NCBI GenBank assembly: GCA_026932145.1
Contig: JAIXKT010000043.1
Coordinates: 7,428-43,259 of the forward strand
Origin: Bacteroidia bacterium
Lineage (GTDB): Bacteria > Bacteroidota > Bacteroidia > J057 > JAIXKT01
DNA: 35,832 bases
Reading direction: 5' to 3'
Made by a program: the position numbers and the translations under genes. This document shows positions 7,133 to 35,832 of this stretch, piece after piece. Numbering within the stretch: the first letter of the stretch is position 1; every line of letters starts with the position of its first letter. The notes below the pieces were generated by a model, which worked only from the letters and a program-made list of their open reading frames with translations, was not told the origin of the DNA and searched no databases.

Positions 7133-8425
7133 TTATCCCACAAACATACCTGCTACTGAGCCGGTTAATAGGCATGCTAATACACCACCGAGTAATGCAC
7201 GAAATCCAAAACGAGATAAATCCCCCCGCCTATTCGGTGCTAAGCTGCCGATACCGCCAATCTGAATAGCAATAGAACTTAGGTTTGCAAAACCGCACAG
7301 CATATAAGTTGCCATTAATTTTGACTTAAAACTGATAACACCTTCTGGAATTTTAGACAAGCTGATATAGGCAACAAATTCATTAATAGCTGTTTTCTCA
7401 CCTAATAGGCTACCTATGGTCAGTGAATCTTTCCAATCTACACCGACGATAAAGGCGATGGGTCTGCAAATTTGCCCCAATACATATTGTAAAGATAATT
7501 TAGCAAAATGGCCATCAGTGGAATCGGCTATCCAACTATTGAGGCCAGTAAAACTCCCAATAATATCTCCTAAAATGTAGTTAATCATTGCGATTAAGGC
7601 GATGAATGAAATCAACATAGCTCCTACATTTACGGCTAATTTTAGACCTTCGCTGGTTCCGATGGTGAGTGCTTCTAAGGCAGTAGAGCCAACTTTTTCG
7701 GAGGCTATTTGGAGGTTAGTGTCTATCACTTCGGTTTCGGGGAGTAGTAATTTAGAGGCCACAACGGCTGCCGGAGCATTCATAATAGAAGCTGTAAGTA
7801 AGTGAGTAGCAAATAGCTGCTGCTGTACTGGGTCGTTTCCGCCCAAAAAGCCCACATAAGCAGCCATTACACCCCCAGCTATTGTAGCCATCCCACCAAT
7901 CATCAGGCACAATAGCTCTGAGTTTGTCATCTTTTCGATATACGGCTTAACCAACAAAGGTGCTTCTGTTTGCCCCATAAACACATTTGCCGCAGCCGAC
8001 AAACTCTCTGCTCCCGAAAGCCCCATCGTTTTGGCCATCACCCAAGCAAAAGCGTAAACTATTTTTTGCAGTATCCCAAAATAAAACAACACACTCGTTA
8101 AGGCAGAAAAAAAGATAATAGTAGGTAACACCCGAAAAGCAAAAATAAAACCAAGTGTATCCGTCTTAGACTTATCTACTAAGCTCCCAAAAACAAACAA
8201 ACTTCCCTGATAAGTGAAGTCTAAAATCGCTACAATAAAAGAACTGACAAAATCAAATCCTACACGTACCAACGGTACTTTAAGTACCAATAAACCAAAA
8301 ACAAGTTGTAACCCAATTCCGATAAGTACCGCTCGCCAATTTATCGAGCGCCGATTTGTGCTCAATAACCACCCTAAACCAACTAAAAAGAGTATCCCAA
8401 AAAGGCCCCGAACGATGTTTTCCAT
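7133..8425 (-). CDS. nupC: NupC-family concentrative nucleoside transporter
   Basis: The 430 residues belong to the CNT family, inner-membrane cation-coupled symporters that import nucleosides. There are many hydrophobic helices. Family blocks include GLQLVFGLLVLKVPL near the N-terminus, FGILQKIVYAFAWVMAKTMGLSGAESLSAAANVFMGQTEAPLLVKPYI (about 117-164) and the late EFVAY...CGFANLSSIAIQIGGIG segment. The length is normal for the family. It heads the minus-strand run nupC, FG-GAP/OmpA gene and GT4. The start is ATG at 8425. The upstream bases hold TTACTTTG (8437-8430), one base off the Bacteroidota -7 box but very close to the start codon. Confidence 0.95.
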   Translation of the reverse strand: MENIVRGLFGILFLVGLGWLLSTNRRSINWRAVLIGIGLQLVFGLLVLKVPLVRVGFDFVSSFIVAILDFTYQGSLFVFGSLVDKSKTDTLGFIFAFRVLPTIIFFSALTSVLFYFGILQKIVYAFAWVMAKTMGLSGAESLSAAANVFMGQTEAPLLVKPYIEKMTNSELLCLMIGGMATIAGGVMAAYVGFLGGNDPVQQQLFATHLLTASIMNAPAAVVASKLLLPETEVIDTNLQIASEKVGSTALEALTIGTSEGLKLAVNVGAMLISFIALIAMINYILGDIIGSFTGLNSWIADSTDGHFAKLSLQYVLGQICRPIAFIVGVDWKDSLTIGSLLGEKTAINEFVAYISLSKIPEGVISFKSKLMATYMLCGFANLSSIAIQIGGIGSLAPNRRGDLSRFGFRALLGGVLACLLTGSVAGMFVG

Positions 8426-22591: not shown

Positions 22592-23608
22592 ATGCGTTGG
22601 TTTGAACTAAAGCTATTCCTTACTCACCTTACTTTCCGGAAGGCGTGGAATTATTGTCTGTTGTTTCTTTCTTTTCATCTTTCAAGGGTTTTAAAGCGGG
22701 TTATTCATCTGGGGAATCCTGCCTCTATCGGGATTGAACCTACCAATTTTTGCAATTTAAGATGTCCGGAATGCCCTTCCGGCCTGCGTTCTTTTACGCG
22801 GCCAAGCGGTATGCTGGACCCTGCTTTGTTTCAACGCTTTATTGATGAAGTACACCCAAATCTATGCTATTTGCTACTGTACTTTCAAGGAGAACCCTAT
22901 TTGAATCCACAATTCTTAGACCTCGTTAAATATGCTGCTTCCCAAAATATCATTACTACCACCAGCACAAATGGCCATTTTTTGGATGATACCCGCGCAC
23001 GTGAAACTGTAGAAAGTGGATTGCACCGCCTGATTATCTCCCTTGACGGCCTGACCCAAGAAACATACCAAAAATATAGAATCGGTGGAAACCTCGAAAA
23101 AGTGCTAACCGGTATCCAAAATGTAATCGCGTGGAAACAAAAACTTAAATCAAAAACTCCTTATATCCTACTCCAATTCATCGTTTTCAGAACCAATGAA
23201 CATGAAATTGACGCTGTACATAATCTTGGCAAAAAGCTAAATGTAGATGCCGTCTTGATTAAAACGGCTCAAATTTATGACTATGAAAATGGTAACGCCC
23301 TCATCCCAACCCAAGAAAAATACAGCCGCTACCGAAAACTACCCAATGGAAAATACCAAATCAAAAATAGGTTAGAAAACCAATGCTGGAGGCTCTGGCA
23401 AGGCATGGAGGTTACTTGGGATGGAAAAATACTCCCCTGCTGCTTTGATAAAGACGCTGCCTATCTAATGGGAAATTTCCCACAAAAAACAATTCAGGAA
23501 ATTTGGCGTAATGAAAACTATCTATCATTTAGAAGAACTATTTTATCCGGCAGAAAAAATATCCCTATGTGCCAAAACTGCACCGAAGGAACTAAGGTTT
23601 TTGAATAG
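22592..23608 (+). CDS. Radical SAM protein with SPASM-type C-terminus
   Basis: The 338 residues carry the radical SAM cluster motif CNLRCPEC (Cys54, Cys58, Cys61), preceded by GIEPTNF. A half TIM-barrel follows with STNG and DGLTQETYQKYRIGG. The C-terminal region has LPCC (Cys283, Cys284) and MCQNC (Cys327, Cys330) ligands, as in SPASM/twitch proteins that bind extra Fe-S clusters. Such enzymes modify peptides, sugars or cofactors. The substrate here is unknown. An N-terminal hydrophobic stretch (about 20-33) could make it membrane-associated. The gene is single and is followed after 177 bases by a cysteine-cluster gene with its own promoter. The only RiPP precursor in the window is about 11 kb away, so a link is speculative. 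Confidence 0.93.
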   Translation: MRWFELKLFLTHLTFRKAWNYCLLFLSFHLSRVLKRVIHLGNPASIGIEPTNFCNLRCPECPSGLRSFTRPSGMLDPALFQRFIDEVHPNLCYLLLYFQGEPYLNPQFLDLVKYAASQNIITTTSTNGHFLDDTRARETVESGLHRLIISLDGLTQETYQKYRIGGNLEKVLTGIQNVIAWKQKLKSKTPYILLQFIVFRTNEHEIDAVHNLGKKLNVDAVLIKTAQIYDYENGNALIPTQEKYSRYRKLPNGKYQIKNRLENQCWRLWQGMEVTWDGKILPCCFDKDAAYLMGNFPQKTIQEIWRNENYLSFRRTILSGRKNIPMCQNCTEGTKVFE

Positions 23609-32746: not shown

Positions 32747-33700
32747 ATGAAATTTGCGCACCCTGAATGGATAGCTGTTGCTTGGGGTTTAGCTATTTTA
32801 GCTGGCGGGGTGCTATTTTTGCTGCATAAACGGCACTTAGGCATTCTAAGCTGGTTGCCGCAAAATACTCGACTCGCTTTTCCGCTTGTGCGCACCTTAC
32901 TGAGAGGGCTTCTTTTCGTTTCATTATTACTCGCATGGATAGAGCCAGTCATCAATATAAAAAAAGTAGGTGATAAACAAGCAGATAGGATTGTGTGGTA
33001 TTTGTTGGATGTTTCAGCAAGTATGCAAACCCAAGACGTTGCGCATAACCGAATTTCGGTAGCAAAAGAAGCTATTGTAGCAAGCATAAAACGAATGGCA
33101 GGGGCAAGGATCGGGGTAATCTTGTTTAGCAATAGTGCTCTGGTTCAGGTTCCCTTAACGCATGACCGTGCAGCGGCTATTCAGCTAACCAACCTAATTA
33201 CAGGGCAGGAACTTGCTGCCGGGCCTGCTCAACTGCGGCAAGCCTTGCTATTGGCGCACAAAAGAACTGTTTCAGCTACTCAAAAAAATGAAAAAGCAGC
33301 AAACATTATTATTATCTCTGATGGTGAAGTAGAACCAGAAAATTATGCTTCTATATTGTATAGATTCAAGCAAGATGGAGCTATCATCTGGACAGTTGCT
33401 GTTGGTACAGAGCAGGGAGGATTTATCCCGAATATTTTGAATACCGGAGATCCAGTTCTGTCAAAGACTCAGCTAAGCGGCTTTGAGCCAATCAAAAAAT
33501 ATTTTAATGAACAAACCTTAGCACTCACAACTTCCCCCAAAAATGCCTTCGTGAATATTGAAGATAAGTTTGTTTATAGCCTGAATAGTTCTGATAATGA
33601 GCGTGATAGTTTTTCGCTTAGAGCTTTTTTTCTGGTCTTAGCAATATTGCTTGGCTTAGGGATTTATTTTGCCAGACCATACCAAGCTATTGAAGGTTAG
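32747..33700 (+). CDS. VWA-domain membrane protein, BatB-like
   Basis: The 317 residues have an N-terminal hydrophobic pair (WIAVAWGLAILAGGVLFLL and LVRTLLRGLLFVSLLLAWI), then a von Willebrand A domain with a MIDAS motif DVSAS (Asp88, Ser90, Ser92). The domain continues with RIGVILFSNSALVQVPLTHDR and IIIISDGEVEPENY. A C-terminal helix is FSLRAFFLVLAILLGLGIYFA. This is the layout of BatA/BatB, membrane proteins of the aerotolerance operon in Bacteroidota. The usual partners (MoxR ATPase, DUF58, BatA, BatC/D) are not in the window, so the operon role is uncertain. It is convergent with the M23 gene, overlapping by 4 bases. Confidence 0.88.
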   Translation: MKFAHPEWIAVAWGLAILAGGVLFLLHKRHLGILSWLPQNTRLAFPLVRTLLRGLLFVSLLLAWIEPVINIKKVGDKQADRIVWYLLDVSASMQTQDVAHNRISVAKEAIVASIKRMAGARIGVILFSNSALVQVPLTHDRAAAIQLTNLITGQELAAGPAQLRQALLLAHKRTVSATQKNEKAANIIIISDGEVEPENYASILYRFKQDGAIIWTVAVGTEQGGFIPNILNTGDPVLSKTQLSGFEPIKKYFNEQTLALTTSPKNAFVNIEDKFVYSLNSSDNERDSFSLRAFFLVLAILLGLGIYFARPYQAIEG

Positions 33701-34659
33701 TCAAAAGATTCAATAGATTTTTCTGCAATAGCTTTCATTTCTTGGTATTCTTTGGGGTTCATGTCGGGTAAAAATAAGTCTAACGGGTCAATATAGACAT
33801 TATTTTTTAGCACTTCAAAGTGTAGATGTGGGCCTTTACTTAGCCCTGTATTACCAGATAGGCCAATAACATCGCCTCGTTTTACGGATTTTCCGGGATA
33901 AACGTTGGTTTTCGATAGGTGTGCATAAACAGAAGTATAGCCGGCACGATGTTGAATGATTACCACATTTCCGAGTCCGTCTTTTTTGGTGCCTGCTTCA
34001 CGGACGATTCCGTCTCCTGCTGCTTGAACCGGAGTGCCCGTAGCCGCTTTGAAATCAATGCCGTGGTGTAGCATTTGGGTTTTATGTATCGGATGGTTTT
34101 TCTGGCCAAAGCCGCAAATTATCTCTGATTGAATGGGGCGAACTGCCGGTATAGAGCGTAATTCCTCCTTTTTCATCTTTGTCAGTTCTAAAATTAACGC
34201 ATTTTTATCACTTAACTGTTTTACCTGCGCATGGATAGCATCTATTTTTTCAGCAATAGCATTAATTCCTTCTTTGGTAATATCTCCGCTAAGGGTAGAA
34301 TCAGTAATTTGCTGAACAACTTCTTCTTTATCTAATCGGTCTGTATTTAGAATAAACTTGTATAAATCAGCATCTTTGGCATCTAAGGCAGCGACGGCAT
34401 CCTCTAATTCAGTATATTTTTCATTGTATTGGTCAATGGCTGTTTCTAACTGGTTAATCTTGTGGTGTAGCATAGCCTCCCTATTGCTGTCTGTAAACAG
34501 ATAGTACAGAACTATCCAGAAAACAGCTACTCCTACACCGGCAGACAGATAAAATGCTGCTCGTTTTAAATAATATTTCCAATCACGTACTTCTTTTTCG
34601 TAGGAGCAAGTTACCGGATTATAGTGGTAAATCTCGCGTTTGTAGTTCAGTAAATTCAT
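33697..34659 (-). CDS. M23-family membrane-anchored peptidase
   Basis: The 320 residues have a basic N-terminus, one transmembrane helix (about 32-54) and a coiled coil (about 62-165). A LytM/M23 domain with the zinc ligands HHGID (His198, Asp202), AHLS (His247) and HLH (His278, His280) follows. M23 enzymes cut peptidoglycan peptide cross-links or activate such enzymes. The domain faces the periplasm. The ATG is only 6 bases after the stop of the NHLP-type precursor gene, so both are probably on one transcript. A role in processing the precursor is possible but unproven, since M23 enzymes are not usual RiPP leader peptidases. Confidence 0.9.
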   Translation of the reverse strand: MNLLNYKREIYHYNPVTCSYEKEVRDWKYYLKRAAFYLSAGVGVAVFWIVLYYLFTDSNREAMLHHKINQLETAIDQYNEKYTELEDAVAALDAKDADLYKFILNTDRLDKEEVVQQITDSTLSGDITKEGINAIAEKIDAIHAQVKQLSDKNALILELTKMKKEELRSIPAVRPIQSEIICGFGQKNHPIHKTQMLHHGIDFKAATGTPVQAAGDGIVREAGTKKDGLGNVVIIQHRAGYTSVYAHLSKTNVYPGKSVKRGDVIGLSGNTGLSKGPHLHFEVLKNNVYIDPLDLFLPDMNPKEYQEMKAIAEKSIESFD

Positions 34660-34665
34660 CAGAAT

Positions 34666-34959
34666 TTACTGTAAGGTAAAACATAGTTTTCTTTTTACAG
34701 CAGTAGTGGTAAACCCAGCTCCGCCGCAAATAGAATCAAGTTGGTCTAAATCTAACTCGCGGCCAATATGATTACCTTTATTGGATTCCACAAAGCTAAT
34801 TTCAATATTATCAGGAAGTTCCTTGCCGGATAACTCATGAATTGCATGTTTAGGGTTCTCTAAGCACCGATTGCGGAAATCCTTATCGTGTGTTGCTCGG
34901 CGAAAGGCTTCTTCTAACACAAGGTATAACTGTTCATCAGTTAGTTTTGTAGTTTCCAT
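34666..34959 (-). CDS. NHLP-leader RiPP precursor peptide
   Basis: The 97 residues match the nitrile-hydratase-like leader peptide (NHLP, TIGR03793-type) family of ribosomal natural-product precursors. A helical N-terminal part ends in DKDFRNRCLENPKHAIHELSGKELPDNIEISFVES (residues 25-59). The conserved leader end is ELDLDQLDSICGG (68-80), with the Gly79-Gly80 cleavage site. The core after the double glycine is AGFTTTAVKRKLCFTLQ (81-97), with Thr84-86, Cys93 and Thr95. Thr plus Cys could form a thioether ring, as with LanM-type enzymes, or be cyclodehydrated; this is inference. No modification enzyme, C39 peptidase transporter or radical SAM gene is adjacent in the window. The region upstream is cut by an IS element. 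A -7 box at 34995-34988 gives a leader of about 25 bases. Confidence 0.82.
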   Translation of the reverse strand: METTKLTDEQLYLVLEEAFRRATHDKDFRNRCLENPKHAIHELSGKELPDNIEISFVESNKGNHIGRELDLDQLDSICGGAGFTTTAVKRKLCFTLQ

Positions 34960-34987: not shown

Positions 34988-34995
34988 CAAAGGTA
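34988..34995 (-). promoter_or_regulatory. -7 box of the precursor gene, -33 region lost to IS
   Basis: TACCTTTG on the minus strand matches TAnnTTTG, 29 bases before the ATG. The expected -33 site, about 19 bases upstream, falls at 35015-35018, exactly at the IS boundary (35016). The native -33 box was probably replaced. Confidence 0.45.
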
Positions 34996-35015
34996 TAATT
35001 TTTTTGCTTTGCTAA

Positions 35016-35832
35016 GAGGTTGTTTAAAATTTATTTTTTTATTCTGTTAAGCATAATTCTAATCATAGCTAAGTGCACAAAGCTTGTACTGCATTCGGGG
35101 TGGAATTCATAGTCATTAACCAATCTTCGTTGAAAACCAAGCCATCCAAAAGTTCGTTCAACTATCCATCTCTTGGGTAAGACATTAAATCCACTAATTC
35201 CTGCCACTTTTTTTACAATTTCCAAAGTGTAATTCAAACTTTTTAAAATCCATTCAGCTAAGTTACCGGTATAACCTTGATCTGCCAATATTTTTGTCAA
35301 TCTAGGGTACTTATATCTTAATTCTTCAAGAACATATTTAGCTCCTTCTCTGTCCTGAATATCAGCGTTATGAATCACAATAGCTATAATAAATCCGAAT
35401 GTGTCAGTAATAATATGTCTTTTTCTTCCTTTAATTTTCTTGTTTCCGTCATAACCGTTTGATAACGAGAAAGAACAAGTTTTAACAGTTTGACTATCAA
35501 TTAATCCAAGACTTGGTGAAACATGTTTTCCTTTTTCCTTTCTTAACTTATCACGCAAAAAATCATGTATTTCTTCAATAAGCCCTTCTGCTGTCCATTT
35601 TCTGAAATAATAATAAACGAGTTGCCACTTAGGGAAATCTTTAGGCAGCAATCTCCATTGAACACCAGTTTTGGTGATGTACAATAATGCGTCTACAATA
35701 CATCTTAAAGGATGCTTTCTTTTCCTGTTATCATTTACTATTTTTTCAATAGCTTCGTACTGAATATCAGTTAGGTTGGTTGGGTAGGCTTTCATACTTG
35801 CTTAATTATCTGATTAATAATCAGCAATATAC
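35016..35832 (-). mobile_element. IS5-family insertion sequence, IS1031-like, right end outside window
   Basis: The left end begins gaggttgtttaaaat at 35016, similar to known IS5-family termini. It is preceded by TAA (35013-35015), consistent with the TNA target of the IS1031 group. The transposase fills most of it. The matching right terminal repeat is not present up to the window end at 35832, so the element runs on. Confidence 0.7.
35031..35795 (-). CDS. IS5-family transposase
   Basis: The 254-residue DDE transposase appears intact. It has an N-terminal DUF4096-like domain (LTDIQYEAIEKIV ... TGVQWRLLPKDFPKW) and the catalytic residues Asp100 (LIDSQTVK), Asp172 (ILADQGYTG) and Glu213 (WIVERTFGWL). 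The R-x3-E-x6-type signature continues with RLVNDYE. It is a single uninterrupted frame, so the element may still be active. It lies 71 bases upstream of the NHLP-type precursor gene, in the same orientation. Confidence 0.95.
   Translation of the reverse strand: MKAYPTNLTDIQYEAIEKIVNDNRKRKHPLRCIVDALLYITKTGVQWRLLPKDFPKWQLVYYYFRKWTAEGLIEEIHDFLRDKLRKEKGKHVSPSLGLIDSQTVKTCSFSLSNGYDGNKKIKGRKRHIITDTFGFIIAIVIHNADIQDREGAKYVLEELRYKYPRLTKILADQGYTGNLAEWILKSLNYTLEIVKKVAGISGFNVLPKRWIVERTFGWLGFQRRLVNDYEFHPECSTSFVHLAMIRIMLNRIKK

Follow-up and report, generated by a model that had tools for sequence, protein, structure and literature searches.

The DNA considered here (the window) is a stretch of 35,832 nucleotides, positions 7428–43259 of contig C43 (93,440 bases), from a genome of 3.48 Mb in 66 contigs. 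A short gene near its end shows the features of an NHLP-type precursor, located between an M23 peptidase gene and an insertion sequence (IS). The relevant features are:

33697–34659, minus strand: M23 peptidase gene (PF01551, E 3e-34)
34666–34959, minus strand: NHLP-type precursor gene, 97 aa (TIGR03793, E 7.6e-11; phmmer match to 9cjx, E 1.5e-9; native codon usage)
34669–34719, minus strand: core, residues 81–97, AGFTTTAVKRKLCFTLQ, followed by the stop codon (read from the sequence)
34720–34959, minus strand: leader, residues 1–80, with a three-helix plus strand fold (AlphaFold2), L(-12), L(-7), I(-4) and GG
34988–34995, minus strand: TACCTTTG, matching the -7 element TAnnTTTG, in the stretch that separates the gene from the IS (read from the sequence)
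~35016–35832, continuing past the window end, minus strand: IS5-family insertion sequence, 887 bp (NF033580, E 2.3e-61; transposase 35031–35795)

The precursor frame runs on the minus strand from an ATG at 34959 to a stop codon that ends at 34666, and its full product of 97 aa reads METTKLTDEQLYLVLEEAFRRATHDKDFRNRCLENPKHAIHELSGKELPDNIEISFVESNKGNHIGRELDLDQLDSICGG-AGFTTTAVKRKLCFTLQ. The junction of leader and core, ...ELDLDQLDSICGG-AGFTTTAVKRKLCFTLQ, is followed by a core of 17 aa. The frame is thereby as an earlier note on this DNA had described it, including the length of the core and the 6-base gap to the M23 gene. Its codon adaptation (CAI-like, 0.771) and GC3 (0.32) equal the values of the neighbouring genes, whereas four of the five other frames across the same stretch score clearly lower (0.54–0.69) and one antisense frame reaches 0.737.

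Searched against the profile library, residues 17–80 matched TIGR03793 with 41.7 bits, below the curated cut-off of 50.9 bits. The protein is homologous to the family but misses the formal threshold, and on this score it is termed NHLP-type rather than a formal member of TIGR03793. Across the 3.48-Mb genome the precursor was the sole match to the model (E 3.4e-9), and none of 14 control genomes gave a match at E ≤ 0.001. Judged by these searches, the gene is real and beyond chance. NHLPs that do pass the cut-off occur in other genomes of the order.

Sequence and structure comparisons converge on the same family. The best solved relative found by phmmer is the NHLP proteusin 9cjx, aligned over residues 6–65 and including the stretch FVE-N-G-H. 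The AlphaFold2 model comprises helices at residues 8–24, 26–34 and 36–44 and a strand at 52–58, at fair to good confidence (pLDDT 82–86 for residues 11–50), and falls under a pLDDT of 50 for residues 61–91; the 17-residue core is accordingly predicted to be disordered. Foldseek returned 9cjx first for the predicted fold (probability 0.99, E 0.011), followed by nitrile hydratase alpha chains. The leader ends in LDLDQLDSICGG, which places Leu at -12, Leu at -7 and Ile at -4 ahead of the GG (residues 79–80), the hydrophobic positions bound by a C39 protease (PMC6363468). Across 12 aligned NHLPs, E68, L69, L74, G79 and G80 are invariant. This leader lacks the second strand segment (YLNLPP) that the other NHLPs examined from the order (Bacteroidota) possess, and the core resembles no other core in the NHLP alignment. 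In summary, profile, match to a solved proteusin leader, fold and cleavage motif bear out the NHLP-type precursor proposed in the earlier note. The two findings that would have spoken against it, a leader without a match and a core within a folded protein, both turned out in favour of a precursor so far as they could be tested; the search of TIGR03793 that it called for gave a clear E value, though a sub-threshold bit score. We thus assign 34666–34959, from its sequence and modelled fold, as encoding a genuine NHLP (nitrile-hydratase-like leader, "proteusin") precursor.

The downstream neighbour invites a functional reading. A gap of 6 bases, free of any terminator-like site, lies between the precursor stop and the ATG of the M23 gene (34659), and the two genes are probably co-transcribed. 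M23 homologues were detected in 19 of the 22 genomes of the order, its own included. The search of relatives for the same pair found no NHLP reading frame beside the M23 orthologues in any of the 18 loci read; in several of these loci alaS lies on the opposite flank of the M23 gene, or the gene that follows is of the MerR type (names from reading the sequences). As the orthologues in relatives lack an adjoining precursor, the pair is lineage-specific and probably incidental, with unrelated functions, and a functional link between precursor and peptidase loses its footing. Likewise, no precursor orthologue with conserved core or gene order was found in 198 relatives, which gave one weak match only, and no close relatives turned up in the genome contig collection, plasmids, phages or viral contigs. 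Among the relatives listed, no other genome belongs to the family of the one carrying the precursor.

The rest of the window around the precursor holds ordinary genes and no adjoining machinery; the export genes are found elsewhere. The whole genome encodes one C39-peptidase protein, on contig C66, which scores 1011.9 bits against TIGR03796 (cut-off 853.3) and keeps Cys25, the His of YHFVVV, the Asp of NDP and the ABC motifs. The NHLP HlyD subunit is encoded on contig C21 (TIGR03794, 323.3 bits, cut-off 156.2) as an intact frame of 411 aa directly behind a TolC gene. TIGR03796 and TIGR03794, two of the three models of the NHLP export system (the third, TIGR03797, describes the second ABC subunit), are matched above cut-off in this genome, and contigs C43, C66 and C21 share a common tetranucleotide composition (correlation 0.75–0.92). 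A motif scan near the exporter and HlyD genes revealed no further small GG-leader reading frames of the NHLP type. Immediately behind the exporter gene on C66 lies a gene for a 286-aa protein without Pfam or NCBIfam match (L044:12652–13512), and two copies of a different IS come next; the protein could belong to the export system.

This dispersal has precedent. Haft et al. (2010) described that NHLP precursors can sit far from modification and export genes, that some NHLPs are found without known modifying enzymes, and that, across genomes, the presence of NHLP precursors goes more closely with the exporter/HlyD pair than with any modifying enzyme (PMC2887384). In light of these findings, the partner to be expected is an exporter that works in trans, and such an arrangement has been seen before. 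The earlier note had suggested an unknown RiPP system with enzymes acting in trans. The first part finds no support, as the exporter belongs to the known NHLP type; the second is borne out for the exporter (TIGR03796 on C66, TIGR03794 and TolC on C21) but not for any modifying enzyme. An NHLP precursor with dispersed machinery represents a known system in an arrangement that is unusual but has been reported before.

Comparison with known systems delineates what is shared. With the TIGR03793 proteusins (Haft, Basu, Mitchell 2010) the precursor has in common a helical leader homologous to nitrile hydratase alpha, a GG cleavage site, a variable core and the companion TIGR03796 and TIGR03794 proteins in the genome; it differs in its sub-threshold score, a shorter leader without the YLNLPP strand, its single copy, a core of only 17 residues and the lack of clustered enzymes. 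DprE2, the Desulfotomaculum NHLP proteusin of PDB entry 9cjx, is the best PDB match by both sequence and fold (33% identical in the structural alignment), albeit with a differing core and from a different phylum. Three NHLP clusters of Bacteroidota (G009, G012 and L085) show the same leader and exporter families, the L085 exporter being 50% identical to that of C66. In these clusters the genes for precursors, exporter and HlyD lie side by side with one for a LanM-like or radical SAM enzyme, whereas in the present genome the components are on separate contigs. The cluster enzymes are a radical SAM protein in G009, the N-terminal half of a LanM in G012 and a LanM-like protein in L085. The G012 locus (L025:9627–14708) contains six NHLP-like reading frames, of which five form a cluster. 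Next to them is encoded a LanM-like protein of 665 aa whose match to TIGR03897 is confined to the N-terminal 520 positions, which makes it a dehydratase half without cyclase. In prochlorosin-type systems, precursors remote from the enzyme carry Nif11-type leaders and are served by a dedicated ProcM. A precursor working with proteins encoded elsewhere is common to both situations, but no such native LanM is present here.

Candidate modifying enzymes of the YcaO, LanM and radical SAM/SPASM types were sought throughout the genome. YcaO was found nowhere in it. The statement of the earlier note that no maturase adjoins the precursor in the window holds for its immediate surroundings, but the window does contain a radical SAM/SPASM gene at 22592–23608, 11 kb away. 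It is the genome's only SPASM match at E ≤ 0.001 and shares its contig with the precursor, which would speak for modification of the core by its product. Still, its counterparts in relatives are 56–57% identical and located away from the relatives' NHLP loci, no similarity to the RiPP maturase of the G009 NHLP cluster was detected, and no RiPP maturase model matched above cut-off. On the strength of its conservation in relatives and its unlikeness to the G009 enzyme we excluded this protein as the maturase; that it acts on the precursor is hardly credible.

The single LanM/DUF4135 protein of the genome, encoded on contig C26, matches TIGR03897 with 504 bits. Together with the finding that the nearest relative found for the C66 exporter (50% identity) clusters with a LanM and NHLPs, it could point to a class II lanthipeptide: the LanM would act on the precursor in trans and close one methyllanthionine ring from a Thr to the only Cys. 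Against this, the tetranucleotide correlation of C26 is 0.44–0.61 along its whole length, compared to 0.75–0.92 for native contigs. With an estimated assembly contamination of 3%, C26 may be foreign to the organism, by contamination or recent import. Moreover, the LanM gene is preceded, ~60 bp away, by a candidate precursor of its own of 80 aa (L043:135–377), and an attenuator-like repeat separates the two; the LanM is only 24–25% identical to the LanMs of NHLP clusters. Its foreign composition and own candidate precursor led us to set this LanM aside, and a lanthipeptide made in trans is very improbable.

Contig C26 (L043:1–20000 and L093) has further features of its own. It carries sul2 (L043:11974–12789, NF000295, 615 bits). 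Its numerous short genes, which share one orientation and are separated by similar intergenic repeats, resemble a cassette array. A RiPP-maturase-like radical SAM/SPASM gene at L093:2401–3471 (TIGR04463, E 2.8e-41, below cut-off) was missed by the genome search, and it adjoins a gene for an S41-type peptidase (L093:984–2432). S41-type genes also occur within the NHLP loci of G009 and a further genome, G017.

On contigs of native composition neither LanM nor YcaO nor a RiPP radical SAM protein was found. The precursor core may then be unmodified, or modified by an enzyme of another type than those sought. Because no known maturase was found on the native-composition contigs, export of an unmodified core, or of one processed by an enzyme type not known for NHLP precursors, is conceivable, and we offer it tentatively.

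The upstream side of the gene is shaped by the IS, which ends 56 bp ahead of the precursor start codon. This copy (35013–35832 and L013:3260–3335) is flanked by the unequal trinucleotides TAA and TCA, whereas five complete copies elsewhere have matching TAA or TTA on both sides, as 3-base TNA duplications. A 16-base N assembly gap lies inside the copy next to the precursor. Recombination between IS copies, or the assembly itself, may have brought its two flanks together, and in view of the unequal flanks and the gap, the flank beyond the IS may not be the original neighbour of the precursor. The ~17 kb of contig beyond the IS contain reading frames of ordinary genes; the earlier suggestion that the enzymes are located there thus found no confirmation over this distance. 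The IS insertion may also have cut the control region of the precursor. In Bacteroidota the -7 promoter consensus is TAnnTTTG, to which TACCTTTG conforms; there is no clear -33 element near it. A scan with a sigma-70 promoter pattern, which does not cover Bacteroidota promoters, gave nothing above chance.

These observations raise the question of whether the gene is a relic, the one precursor left over after IS-mediated rearrangement had broken up an NHLP cluster, its frame open but no longer expressed or matured. The nearby IS end with its unequal flanks, as a sign of rearrangement or misassembly, would fit such a history, as would the single precursor here compared to two to six beside enzymes in G009, G012 and L085, the lowered leader score and the lack of a modifying enzyme of native composition. 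Conversely, the precursor frame is intact with normal codon usage, exporter and HlyD are intact as well, and the -7-like element is still in place between gene and IS. A relic is therefore unlikely in our assessment.

What is observed are the homology and fold of the leader, its cleavage motif, and exporter and HlyD genes with intact frames on native-composition contigs. On these grounds we favour, at a probability of roughly 70%, a precursor whose NHLP leader is recognised by the C66 PCAT and cut after GG, and whose core is exported via a dispersed type I system. The only C39 exporter-protease of the genome (PCAT, TIGR03796) would recognise the folded leader and cleave the precursor after the GG, at residue 80. 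The 17-residue core would then leave through a type I channel composed of the exporter, the NHLP HlyD and the TolC of C21, an export system that would be scattered over contigs rather than clustered.

With no adjacent enzyme, a sub-cut-off leader and the exporter elsewhere, this precursor is of the kind that cluster-based genome mining misses. If its core is unmodified, NHLP leaders could act as plain export signals, and such a role would agree with what was observed in 2010, namely that the occurrence of NHLPs follows the exporter and not the modifying enzymes.
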